In this document: piece by piece, positions 26,870 to 31,101 of the stretch | Layout of the letters: each line of letters starts with the position of its first letter | Position numbering within the stretch: the first letter of the stretch is position 1 | Assembly (NCBI GenBank): GCA_025353585.1 | Contig: JANXOM010000312.1 | Coordinates: 1 to 64,000, forward strand | DNA: 64,000 bases | Direction: 5' to 3' | Source: Deltaproteobacteria bacterium | GTDB taxonomy: Bacteria > Myxococcota_A > Polyangia > Haliangiales > Haliangiaceae | The notes under the pieces: generated by a model | Database searches by the model: none | What the model saw: the letters and a program-made list of their open reading frames with translations, nothing else | Told to the model about the DNA's origin: nothing | Made by a program: the position numbers and the translations under genes

Positions 26870-26967
26870 CGGCGTTCGGACGGGTCTCCGCGATGACGGA
26901 GCAAAGCGCCGTGCGATCTCGCACATGGAGCCGGCGCGCACACCGTGCGTGTCAGGTACGACTCTCA

Positions 26968-27906
26968 ATGGCCGACACCGCCTCTGGACCGATGCTGGGC
27001 GAAGCCGCCGCGCGGCAGCTCTCGAACACGACGAAGACGCCGCCGCAGTGGCTCGGCTCGACCCCGCGCTGGTTGACGCAGCTCCTGCCGTGGACGCCGG
27101 TCGAGGCGGGCGTCTACCGGCTCAACCGCGTCATCGACGGCAAGTTCGCCGCGGAGTGCAGCCCGCCGGACGGCACGATCCTGCCGGTCGCGCTCGTCGA
27201 CTACGAGAAGAAGCCGCGCGAGTACGTCCTGTCGACCTGCACGACCACGATCGAGGTCCACACCCGGATCTCCGATCTGTTCCGCAGCCCGATGGACCAG
27301 ACGAAGGAGCAGCTGACGATCGCGGTCGAGCGCATGAAGGAGAAGCAGGAGGACGAGCTGCTCAACAACGGCAGCTACGGCCTCCTCAACAGCGTGCACG
27401 ACTCGATGCGCGTCAAGCCGCGCGGCGCCGCGCCGACGCCGGACGACCTCGACGAGCTGCTCGCGCGCGTGTGGAAGGAGCCCTCGTTCTTCCTCGCGCA
27501 CCCGCGCGCCATCGCCGCCTTTGGCCGCGAGTGCACGCGCCGCGGTGTTCCGCCGCCGACGGTCACGCTGTTCGGCGCGCCGATGCTGACGTGGCGCGGG
27601 CTCCCGCTCGTGCCGTGCGACAAGCTGCACGTCAACGGCGCGAAGACGGACATCCTCCTCATGCGCACGGGCGAGAAGAAGCGCGGCGTCATCGGCCTGT
27701 TCCAGCCCGGCATCCCGGGCGAGGTCAGCCCGAGCCTGTCCATGCGCTGGATGGGGATCAGCCAGAACGGCGCGGCGAGCTACCTCATCTCCCTGTACTG
27801 CGCGGCGGCGGTGATGGTCGAGGACGCGCTCGGCGTGCTCGAGAACGTCCACGTCGACCGCTACCACGAGTACGCGGAGCCGGTCGGCGAGACGAAGAAG
27901 GGCTGA
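26968..27906 (+). CDS. Family 2A encapsulin shell protein (SrpI / MMP-I type)
   Basis: 312 residues, the usual size. The sequence follows the 35-kDa major membrane protein I of Mycobacterium leprae and cyanobacterial SrpI throughout: PRWLTQLLPWTPVEAGVYR, REYVLSTCTTTIEVHTRISD, PSFFLAHPRAIAAFGRE, LTWRGLPLVP, LMRTGEKKRGVIGLFQPG and a C-terminal HVDRYHEYAEP. These proteins have the HK97 phage-capsid fold and assemble into hollow protein shells. Family 2A shells enclose a cysteine desulfurase through its disordered N-terminus, and such a gene follows here. The ATG at 26968 matches family N-termini; an upstream ATG at 26893 adds non-homologous residues. No Shine-Dalgarno site is obvious. Confidence 0.93.
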   Translation: MADTASGPMLGEAAARQLSNTTKTPPQWLGSTPRWLTQLLPWTPVEAGVYRLNRVIDGKFAAECSPPDGTILPVALVDYEKKPREYVLSTCTTTIEVHTRISDLFRSPMDQTKEQLTIAVERMKEKQEDELLNNGSYGLLNSVHDSMRVKPRGAAPTPDDLDELLARVWKEPSFFLAHPRAIAAFGRECTRRGVPPPTVTLFGAPMLTWRGLPLVPCDKLHVNGAKTDILLMRTGEKKRGVIGLFQPGIPGEVSPSLSMRWMGISQNGAASYLISLYCAAAVMVEDALGVLENVHVDRYHEYAEPVGETKKG

Positions 27907-27958: not shown

Positions 27959-29611
27959 ATGCTCGGCCAGCTCGGCGATGCGGGCGGGGGCGTCACGCCG
28001 GCGCTCGAACGCCCGCCGCTGCCCTCCGCGATCGCCAACGCGAGCCCCGGGCTGGCGACGAGCGCGGCCACGCCGGGGCTCCCGGTCGGCGGCGGGCCCG
28101 CGCTGCCGAGCGACGATCCGGCGGCGATGGCGCGCGTGCTCGCGCAGATGGCGAACGAGATGTTCGGCGGAGGCGGTGCGCCGACCAGCGCGGCGCCGGT
28201 GCCGGCGCCGAGCGAAGCGCTCGGGGCGGTGACGTCGCCGCCGCCGGCGTGGGACGGAGCGCTCGCCGCCATGCGGCCGGGGGAGCCTTCGGCGGCGTTT
28301 GCCCCCGGCGGTGGGGCAGGGTTCGGCGTGCCGGCGCTCGACCTGCCCGGGCCGACGGCCATCGACGCCCCGCCCGCGTATGCCGTGCCGGCCCAGCGCG
28401 CGCCCGATCGCGGCTCGCCGCCCTCGCCGGGCACGTCGTCACCGGGCACGTCATCGCCGGGACCGCGCGACGGCGCCCCCGTGCGCGACCTCGGGGGCGA
28501 CGCGTTCGACGCGCGCGCCATCCGCAAGGACTTCCCGATCCTCGAGGAGCGGGTCGCCAGCGGGGAGCGCCTCGTCTGGCTCGATAACGGGGCCACCACG
28601 CAGAAGCCGCGCGCGGTCATCGACCGCCTGACGTACTTCTACGAGCACGAGAACTCGAACATCCACCGCGCCGCGCACACGCTCGCCGCGCGGGCGTCCG
28701 ATGCGTACGAACAGGCGCGCGAGATCACGCGAGAGTTCCTGAATGCCCCGGCGGCGTCGGAGATCATCTTCGTCCGCGGCGCGACCGAGGGCATCAACCT
28801 CATCGCGCAGAGCTGGGGCCGCCGCAACATCCGCAGCGGCGACGAGATCGTCATCACGCACCTCGAGCACCACGCGAACATCGTCCCGTGGCAGATGCTG
28901 TGCGCCGAGACCGGCGCGAAGCTGCGCGTGGCGCCCGTCGACGATCGCGGGGACGTGATCCTCGAGGCCTACGAGCGGCTCCTCTCGCCGCGGACGCGGC
29001 TCGTCGCGATCACGCAGGTGTCGAACGCGCTCGGCACGGTGACGCCCACGCGCGACATGGTCGCGATCTTCGCGCCCACCGGCATCGGCGTGGTGCACGG
29101 CAAGCGCGCGGTCCTCGACGCGATGCCGCCGTGGGAGGGCGGCGGCAACATGATCGCCGACGTCACCTTCGAGCGCACGGTGTACCAGCCGCCGCCGGCC
29201 CGCTTCGAGGCCGGCACCGGCAACATCGCGGACGCGGTCGGCCTCGGCGCCGCGCTCGACTACGTGATGAAGATCGGGATGGACGTCATCAGCCGCTACG
29301 AGCACGAGCTGCTCGGGTACGCGACCGAGCGCCTCGCGACGGTCCCGGGGCTCCACATGATCGGCACCGCGCGCGAGAAGGCGGGCGTGCTGTCGTTCGT
29401 GCTCGACGGCCAGCGGACGGAGGACGTCGGCGCGCTCCTGGACAAGGACGGGATCGCCGTCCGCTCGGGCCACCACTGCGCGCAGCCGATCCTGCGGCGG
29501 TTCGGCGTCGAGGCATCGGTCCGGGCGTCGCTCGCTTTCTACAATCTTCCCGCGGAGATCGACGCGCTCGTCGAATCGCTGCGGAAGATCCAGGGCGGCC
29601 GGCGGGCGTAA
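27959..29611 (+). CDS. Encapsulin cargo: SufS-like cysteine desulfurase lacking its PLP-lysine segment
   Basis: 550 residues. The first ~180 are Ala/Pro/Gly-rich and disordered-looking, with an amphipathic patch AQMANEMFGG, as expected of a family 2A encapsulin cargo. The rest is a group II cysteine desulfurase: LDNGATTQKP, RGATEGINLIAQ, HLEHHANIVPW, VSNALGTVTP, MPPWEGGGNMI, FEAGTGN and the catalytic-Cys loop SGHHCAQP (C507). However, MVAI (ending at base 29068) runs straight into FAPTGIG. By comparison with E. coli SufS about 38 residues are absent, including the PLP-contacting Asp and Gln and the Schiff-base Lys of SGHK, which occurs nowhere else in the protein. Upstream, ATG at 27917 is in the same frame but is closed by an amber codon (27932-27934). 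The protein as written cannot be a normal PLP desulfurase. Confidence 0.85.
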   Translation: MLGQLGDAGGGVTPALERPPLPSAIANASPGLATSAATPGLPVGGGPALPSDDPAAMARVLAQMANEMFGGGGAPTSAAPVPAPSEALGAVTSPPPAWDGALAAMRPGEPSAAFAPGGGAGFGVPALDLPGPTAIDAPPAYAVPAQRAPDRGSPPSPGTSSPGTSSPGPRDGAPVRDLGGDAFDARAIRKDFPILEERVASGERLVWLDNGATTQKPRAVIDRLTYFYEHENSNIHRAAHTLAARASDAYEQAREITREFLNAPAASEIIFVRGATEGINLIAQSWGRRNIRSGDEIVITHLEHHANIVPWQMLCAETGAKLRVAPVDDRGDVILEAYERLLSPRTRLVAITQVSNALGTVTPTRDMVAIFAPTGIGVVHGKRAVLDAMPPWEGGGNMIADVTFERTVYQPPPARFEAGTGNIADAVGLGAALDYVMKIGMDVISRYEHELLGYATERLATVPGLHMIGTAREKAGVLSFVLDGQRTEDVGALLDKDGIAVRSGHHCAQPILRRFGVEASVRASLAFYNLPAEIDALVESLRKIQGGRRA

Positions 29612-29629: not shown

Positions 29630-29658
29630 ATCCGTTATTGCGGATCCGTCCCAACGGA
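29630..29658. promoter_or_regulatory. Two adjacent palindromes upstream of the rhodanese promoter
   Basis: ATCCG-TTATTG-CGGAT (29630-29645) abuts TCCGT-CCCA-ACGGA (29645-29658). The first contains TCCGTTAT, repeated 50 bp later inside the promoter palindrome. They may be operator sites or, for the desulfurase transcript, hairpins near its 3' end; no T-run follows. Confidence 0.4.
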
Positions 29659-29662
29659 CCCC

Positions 29663-29698
29663 TTGCCAACCATAGCGGTGTCCGTTATAACAGACACC
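29663..29698 (+). promoter_or_regulatory. Rhodanese promoter with overlapping 22-bp operator-like palindrome
   Basis: TTGCCA (29663-29668) and TATAAC (29686-29691) are spaced by 17 bases. Seven bases then separate the -10 from the ATG at 29699, so the transcript should begin at or next to the start codon. Bases 29677-29698 form an inverted repeat (GGTGTCCGTTA / TAACAGACACC) with one mismatched pair, centred on the -10. A bound regulator would block the polymerase directly. Confidence 0.65.
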
Positions 29699-30034
29699 AT
29701 GGTCGCGACGCTCACCGCCCTCGAAGCCGCAGCGCTGATTGCCAGCTCGCGAGTCGAGGTGATCGACGTCCGGGACTACGACGAGTTCAACGCCGGCCAA
29801 TTGCCGGAGGCCCGCGCGGTGCCGCTCGACCTCCTCCGCGCCGACACCGATGCCGAGCTGCACGGCACGAAGGCCGGCGTCCTGTTTGTCTGCGCGCGCG
29901 GCTCGCGCAGCCTGTCCGCGGCGAAGATGGCGGAGCGTCTCGGCTACGAGAACGTGTACAGCCTCGACGGCGGCACGAGCGCGTGGGCCGCCGCTGGCCT
30001 GCCGATCGTGGCCGGCCAGCGTCACGCGGCGTGA
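29699..30034 (+). CDS. Single-domain rhodanese (sulfurtransferase)
   Basis: 111 residues from the ATG at 29699. It has the compact rhodanese fold: ALEAAALI, VEVIDVRDYDEFNAGQLPEA, then the active loop CARGSRS with C65, and SLDGGTSAWAAAGLP. Such proteins carry sulfur as a Cys persulfide between donors and acceptors. It lies 87 bases downstream of the desulfurase and has its own strong promoter overlapped by a palindrome, suggesting separate, possibly sulfur- or stress-dependent control. Rhodaneses are plausible partners of family 2A encapsulin/desulfurase loci, so it may move sulfur to or from the compartment (inference). Cytosolic. Confidence 0.88.
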   Translation: MVATLTALEAAALIASSRVEVIDVRDYDEFNAGQLPEARAVPLDLLRADTDAELHGTKAGVLFVCARGSRSLSAAKMAERLGYENVYSLDGGTSAWAAAGLPIVAGQRHAA

Positions 30035-30072
30035 CCCGGTAGCCGCGCCGGGCGCGAGCGCCTGCGCGACGC

Positions 30073-30222
30073 TTACCGCAGAGCAAGGGAGCACGCAAAG
30101 AGTGAGGAGCAGATCGAGAGGGGTTGGTTCGCCTGTTCCCATGGGCGCGCAGGCAAAGCCCCTGGGATCAAACCCTCTCGCGCTGCTCCTCACTCTTTGC
30201 GTGCTCCTTTGCTCTGCGGTAA
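30073..30222. repeat. 150-bp imperfect palindromic element between convergent genes
   Basis: Outer arms of 40 bases (30073-30112 and 30183-30222) are inverted copies with one mismatch. An inner pair, CGAGAGGGGTT (30115-30125) and AACCCTCTCG (30171-30180), continues the stem, and a small hairpin around TTCCCATGGG closes it. It fills the gap between the rhodanese and glycosyltransferase-like stops. It looks like a REP/MITE-type structured repeat and may also act as a two-way terminator. No target duplication is certain. Confidence 0.8.
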
Positions 30223-30237
30223 ACGTCTCGCCCGCGC

Positions 30238-31101
30238 TCACCCCTCGGTGGCCACCGCGTCATTTCTGACCCTCGCGACCGCCGCGGCGATCGTGGCCGT
30301 CGGATCCAGCGCGCGGAACGCCGCGACCTGCCGCGCGGCCACCGCGAGGAAGCGCGCGCGGTCGGCGAGCAGCGCCGCGACGTCGTCGGCGAACGCCGCA
30401 GTTCGGGCCCACGCGATCGCGTCGTCATATGCCGCGGCGGTCGGATCGGTGCTCGGCTCGCTGATCACCGGGCAGCCTCGCAACAGCGGATAAAAGCAGC
30501 GGATCGGCTCGAACAACGCGTCGTCGTCCGTCTTGTGCAGGTTGATCACCGCGAGCGCGCGGTCGATGCGCGCGTCGCGGACGGGGCCGTACTCGCCGAA
30601 CACCGCCGTCACGGCGAGCCCGCGCGCGGCCACCGCGTCGAGCAACGCCGCGCGCCGGGGCGTGATGACGCCGTAGAACAGGAGCTCGTCGCCGGGCTCG
30701 CGGGCCACACCAGGCGCGAGCGCCGCGCACGTCCAGAACGGGATGACCGACGCGCGCGCGTGCCCGAGCTCGCGGATGTTGCGCGCCGAGTAGTCCCAGA
30801 CGCGGTGACGCGCGAGCAGGCCGCGATACACCGGCGACGCGAGCGGCCAGTCCGTCGGCGGCACGAGGCGCTCGCTGTTGAAGATGATCGTGTCCGGCGG
30901 GAGCGCGGCCGCGTGCCCTGCGTCGAGGAGGTGCGCGCACGCGACGATGTTGATGGCGCCGCCGTCGATCGTGTTGTCGGCCTGCGTGACCGCTTCGCCG
31001 CACGCGCCGAGGCTCGCGTGGAGGTACGCGACCGCCTCGGCGACCGCGTGGGCGTGCGGATAGTCGGCCGGCTGGATCCGCGTGATGTGGAACGGCTTCA
31101 C
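30238..31101 (-). CDS. Glycosyltransferase-like protein of unknown specificity
   Basis: 287 residues from the GTG at 31101 (an ATG at 31149 is possible). It has the flavour of a GT-B glycosyltransferase C-terminal half: DTIIFNSERL, VWDYSARNIREL, DELLFYGVITPRRAALLDA, VINLHKTDD and RCFYPLLRGCPVISEPS, the last resembling the donor-binding region. No classical EX7E pair is certain. TATCGT 16 bases upstream of the GTG lies inside the longer reading, arguing for the shorter start. No sugar genes are adjacent, so the acceptor is unknown. Confidence 0.5.
   Translation of the reverse strand: MKPFHITRIQPADYPHAHAVAEAVAYLHASLGACGEAVTQADNTIDGGAINIVACAHLLDAGHAAALPPDTIIFNSERLVPPTDWPLASPVYRGLLARHRVWDYSARNIRELGHARASVIPFWTCAALAPGVAREPGDELLFYGVITPRRAALLDAVAARGLAVTAVFGEYGPVRDARIDRALAVINLHKTDDDALFEPIRCFYPLLRGCPVISEPSTDPTAAAYDDAIAWARTAAFADDVAALLADRARFLAVAARQVAAFRALDPTATIAAAVARVRNDAVATEG

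Follow-up and report, generated by a model that had tools for sequence, protein, structure and literature searches.

The SrpI encapsulin of Synechococcus was previously reported to be induced by sulfur starvation (PMC8049743), and rhodaneses are common accessories of Family 2 cysteine-desulfurase operons (PMC8346489). No regulator of the Family 2A encapsulin sulfur operon was named in the literature that we found. In E. coli, the core sulfate-assimilation genes are under the control of CysB. A role in sulfur utilisation and a palindromic motif have been ascribed to the E. coli regulator SutR (Yamamoto 2015, as cited in PMC8464067 and PMC10781874). Our literature search for the SutR binding motif and for sulfur regulators of Myxococcus returned nothing direct.

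Here, we analysed the promoter of a rhodanese gene in the window (the whole 64-kb stretch of DNA under study). The palindrome over this promoter and its upstream copies are very probably the operators of an autoregulated SutR-like XRE-cupin repressor, which would tie the sulfur handling of an encapsulin to sulfur status.

The encapsulin operon around the rhodanese gene

The genes before the rhodanese were left unnamed in the preliminary description of this DNA; family profile matches identify them as the shell gene of a Family 2A encapsulin and, most probably, the gene for its cargo, a cysteine desulfurase (Table 1). The start of the shell protein (MADTAS) was set by comparison; the listed open reading frame begins at 26893. 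Orthologous rhodaneses from the same genus and family (46–63% identity) occupied the same place behind the desulfurase. The draft genome of the window comprises 437 contigs, in which a simple caller based on composition, together with inspection by eye, was used to place gene starts.

Table 1. Positions and supporting evidence for the genes, promoter elements and putative operators (window positions unless a contig or locus is named)
Feature	Position	Strand	Evidence
Possible weak operator TCCGCGATGACGGA	26887-26900	+	3 mismatches to TCCGTTATAACGGA; 67 bp before likely shell start
Family 2A encapsulin shell (SrpI-like)	26968-27906	+	PF19307; NF041162 encap_f2a, 460 bits (cut-off 380)
Family 2A encapsulin cargo cysteine desulfurase	27959-29611	+	NF041166, 707 bits in two stretches
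Distal operator TCCGTTATTGCGGA	29631-29644	+	Palindrome, 2 mismatches to TCCGTTATAACGGA
Middle weak operator TCCGTCCCAACGGA	29645-29658	+	Palindrome, 3 mismatches to TCCGTTATAACGGA; abuts distal operator
-35 element TTGCCA	29663-29668	+	TTGcC kept in aligned orthologous promoters
Main operator core TCCGTTATAACAGA	29681-29694	+	1 mismatch to TCCGTTATAACGGA; overlaps -10; within the 22-bp repeat
-10 element TATAAC	29686-29691	+	Inside main operator; identical in 12/12 aligned promoters
Rhodanese, single-domain, 111 aa	29699-30034	+	PF00581, 61.8 bits; ATG 7 bp after -10
XRE-cupin regulator gene, same genome	G000:C404, L135:4266-4955		

Relative to 12 relatives in an alignment, the window desulfurase lacked 38 residues in frame (junction near 29068), and the PLP lysine of the SGHK motif was gone with them. 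This gap splits the NF041166 match, the score of which lies below the cut-off of 800, and the same stretch was intact in the relatives. A second copy of the desulfurase was not found in the same genome. Either the residues were truly lost or the assembly collapsed at this point; a different gap of 22 residues, lying between repeated PPW sequences in the desulfurase of one relative (G028), hints at assembly collapse.

On the 3' side of the rhodanese gene lies a 76-nt inverted repeat (30051–30126 and 30169–30244; 87% complementary, 42-nt loop). It belongs to a dispersed palindromic repeat family, with 39 similar stretches across the genome, many of them arranged as inverted pairs ~100 bp apart.

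Promoter and putative operator array before the rhodanese gene

Reading of the sequence bore out the near-consensus promoter of the preliminary description, with 17 bp between TTGCCA and TATAAC and 7 bp between TATAAC and the ATG at 29699, as well as its 22-bp inverted repeat with a single mismatch. This repeat, GGTGTCCGTTATAACAGACACC, consists of two 11-bp arms with one mismatched pair (29677–29698) and covers the -10 element of the leaderless rhodanese promoter. Weaker copies were placed 36 and 50 bp upstream of the main palindrome. The earlier statement that two upstream palindromes share one motif held for TCCGTTATTGCGGA, which contains TCCGTTAT, and was slightly too strong for TCCGTCCCAACGGA, which has only TCCGT in common. 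In the whole window, four sites had ≤ 3 mismatches to TCCGTTATAACGGA (starting at 26887, 29631, 29645 and 29681), all of them within the encapsulin operon.

By itself, the palindromicity of the 22-bp repeat was within chance for 64 kb, as 14 gapless palindromes (perfect or with one mismatch) scored at least as high in the window, compared to ~12.5 per 64 kb of simulated sequence. With about a dozen palindromes of such quality expected, one could fall over a promoter by chance and serve no regulator. This explanation was refuted by the comparative data (conservation, fixed spacing and recurrence across a regulon), and its probability is practically nil; the significance of the palindrome comes from recurrence and conservation rather than from its quality.

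A check for conservation before orthologous rhodaneses, which the preliminary description had proposed, was positive: the core was located 3–4 bp before the ATG in 12 genomes and read (T/G)CCG(T/C)TATAAC(G/A)GA across the 12 loci. The left operator half varied between TTA and CTA beside the invariant TATAAC of the right half, as expected if the right half doubles as the -10 element. In most of the 12 genomes the core formed part of a three-site array at about -68, -54 and -18 (spacing of 14 and 36 bp), in which the distal site lay at -66 to -69 in 9 genomes and the middle site at -53 to -55, 36–37 bp before the main site, in 11.

In the 22-bp repeat, the outer arms varied among the aligned promoters. 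The earlier proposal that the 22-bp repeat is the operator was thus right in part: a palindromic operator is conserved, but its conserved unit, as judged from the alignment, is the 14-bp core TCCGTTATAACGGA, and the 22-bp repeat was ruled out as that unit. The same variation bears on a hairpin in the RNA, which the repeat would form in a transcript that reads through from the desulfurase to the rhodanese and which might act in processing or attenuation. We rejected the hairpin as highly improbable because the outer arms were not kept complementary across orthologues, with no covariation, and because the site recurred at promoters of unlinked genes.

Sites ≤ 150 bp from the start of the shell gene were found at 3 of 11 loci (the window, G007 and G020; P about 4e-6 relative to local background). 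As the shell site is weak and restricted to these loci, the rhodanese appears to be the more consistently controlled outlet. At the more distant locus of G087 (L161, G087:C184), the rhodanese promoter carried a different repeat, GTGTCTCCTATCCTAGACAC, at the same place; a SutR-like gene lies downstream of the encapsulin genes there, and GTGTCTCCTATCCTAGACAC is possibly a co-evolved operator.

Genes preceded by the core and the XRE-cupin regulator

The pattern GTGTCYGTTATAAC, which had been suggested for a genome-wide scan, matched only the rhodanese site, and its two-mismatch matches were at control level. Since this pattern yielded nothing beyond control level elsewhere, the symmetric 14-bp core was required for the scan, and the core did recur before sulfur-assimilation genes. 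At ≤ 1 mismatch, TCCGTTATAACGGA gave 65 sites in 27 related genomes, compared to 6 for the reversed control. By hand count, 27 of 42 examined sites were located directly before genes for sulfate transport or reduction, cysteine or methionine, 3 were before an XRE-cupin gene, and 7 looked unrelated. Targets included a sulfate-binding protein and PHO4 and DASS permeases (sulfate transport), cysD, cysH and a NirA-like reductase (sulfate activation and reduction), cysK (cysteine), and metX and metY (methionine), with carbonic anhydrase, a serine hydrolase and DUF2325 recurring in addition. In the genome of the window itself, sites were found before cysD (C32), metX (C239), a TauD-like dioxygenase/carbonic anhydrase (C240), a porin (C315) and the XRE-cupin gene (C404). 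From their gene content, the TCCGTTATAACGGA sites mark a predicted sulfur-assimilation regulon. Some genomes speak against SutR-like control of these sites: in G004 and G011, of the same genus, the XRE-cupin regulator was present and the sites were only diverged; G020 has a regulator orthologue, and a genome scan found no site of ≤ 1 mismatch.

Two other protein families also accompanied the sites. A beta-carbonic-anhydrase-like protein was a recurrent operator target (L063, 3117–3704; L075, 3076–3654; L147, 2142–2723), and a small DUF2325-like protein recurred at L214 (3156–3518), L215 (4475–4837), L204 (3803–4126) and L093 (3203–3556), the last identified by Pfam scan and the other three recognised by eye. 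Neighbours of the DUF2325-like gene include SutR-like genes, genes for sulfate transport and Family 2A encapsulins, and the operator is often present; the product of this gene is a candidate new sulfur protein.

The XRE-cupin protein of this genome combines an N-terminal XRE helix-turn-helix (HTH_3, residues 53–105) with a C-terminal cupin domain (Cupin_2, 155–221) and shares 33% identity with E. coli SutR along its full length (E 6e-38); it reached no NCBIfam cut-off, PuuR scoring 41 of 211 bits. Its own promoter (C404) carries TCCGCTATAGTGGA, with 3 mismatches to the core. Many XRE-cupin promoters were ordered TTGAC, operator, -10, and several of those examined had no recognisable site. Among 80 XRE-cupin homologues from the genome_contigs collection, 9 were preceded by a site of ≤ 2 mismatches, compared to a mean of 0.1 and a maximum of 1 for shuffled palindromes. 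Outside the motif-bearing set, 69 genomes held only 14 sites of ≤ 1 mismatch; in two other families, 3 of them lay ~70 bp upstream of a homologue of the XRE-cupin gene. In E. coli, TCCGTTATAACGCA, with one mismatch, occurs in the sutR promoter 35 bp upstream of the ATG (chance probability 1.3e-5). Orthologue and motif co-occurred in 21/28 vs. 3/66 genomes, a statistic that ignores shared ancestry. Among culturable relatives, Anaeromyxobacter and Archangium possess the regulator. Genes of the encapsulin operon had the XRE-cupin gene next to them in G087 and G020, in one Myxococcales MAG and in two Magnetospirillum; the Magnetospirillum shell gene is preceded by an operator.

Together with the relation to SutR, these associations suggest that the operator is most likely bound by a dimeric XRE-cupin relative of E. 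coli SutR, which supports the preliminary interpretation of a dimeric repressor that plausibly senses sulfur species. The regulons of CymR and CysB are similar in content to the operator targets, and another sulfur regulator (Rrf2/CymR-like or LysR CysB-like) might bind the palindrome, with the XRE-cupin gene as only one of its targets. We consider this quite improbable, as XRE-cupin was the sole recurrent regulator gene with a site and the sole known sulfur-regulator type seen next to the sites examined, and as the link between XRE-cupin gene and operator persisted in other families, other classes and E. coli, where the other targets differ. Inspection of the genes beside these sites showed no CymR (Rrf2) or CysB (LysR) gene.

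Proposed control and relation to known systems

In the mechanism that we propose, an XRE-cupin dimer would read TCCGTTA-TAACGGA. When sulfur is plentiful, the repressor would sit on the -10 element of the leaderless rhodanese promoter and block RNA polymerase; with a site over the -10 of such a promoter, steric hindrance is the suggested means of repression. A sulfur metabolite bound in the cupin domain is the probable signal, and the fixed pair of upstream sites probably makes binding cooperative. Under sulfur shortage, the repressor would leave, so that the rhodanese would be made together with the enzymes of sulfate uptake, sulfate reduction, and cysteine and methionine synthesis, and might then provide the encapsulated desulfurase with a sulfur acceptor.

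The upstream pair also admits a different role for the same SutR-like regulator. Counted from the leaderless start, its two sites are centred near -47 and -61, at a constant distance from the promoter, and activators classically bind around -61.5. The protein could be a dual regulator, as E. coli SutR is labelled in the RefSeq annotation, activating from the upstream pair and repressing from the -10 site. This appears unlikely, as the promoters of regulator genes and most cys and met promoters carry a single site in or beside the core promoter, which fits repression. Under repression by the SutR-like protein, our best reading of the sequence comparisons is that the operator would place part of the encapsulin operon under the general sulfur control of the cell. 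A broader proposal, which we regard as evenly balanced, is that, across Myxococcota and in some Alphaproteobacteria, sulfate assimilation has a SutR-type regulator as its master switch instead of CysB or CymR, with encapsulin sulfur compartments hard-wired to this regulator through the operator and the rhodanese as the regulated outlet.

This analysis names a probable regulator and a DNA site for the Family 2A encapsulin sulfur operon, the control of which is not described in the literature that we found, and gives a testable regulon for a bacterial group for which our literature search found no sulfur-assimilation regulator. Because the operator nearly equals the site before E. coli sutR, E. 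coli K-12 offers a host in which to test the prediction.

The regulons of CymR, CysB and McbR/CysR resemble the one predicted here in their targets (uptake and reduction of sulfate, synthesis of cysteine and methionine), whereas their regulator families and operators are unrelated to the SutR-type system. The closest solved full-length XRE-cupin protein is an HTH_3 regulator of Vibrio cholerae (PDB 1y9q, E 4.4e-25), which we take to be methionine-bound and for which we know of no DNA complex. Compared to the Family 2A encapsulin operon of Synechococcus elongatus (SrpI and cysteine desulfurase), the shell family and, most probably, the cargo family match, but here the operator array is located at the downstream rhodanese and the desulfurase of the window lacks its PLP lysine. 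E. coli SutR (YdcN, b1434) shares with the regulator described here the XRE helix-turn-helix and cupin architecture, the above identity over the whole protein, a near-identical recognition helix (AMLGQIE) and the one-mismatch copy of the operator before its own gene. Unlike in E. coli, the sites here cover core sulfate-assimilation genes and an encapsulin-associated rhodanese, and many of the targets look leaderless.
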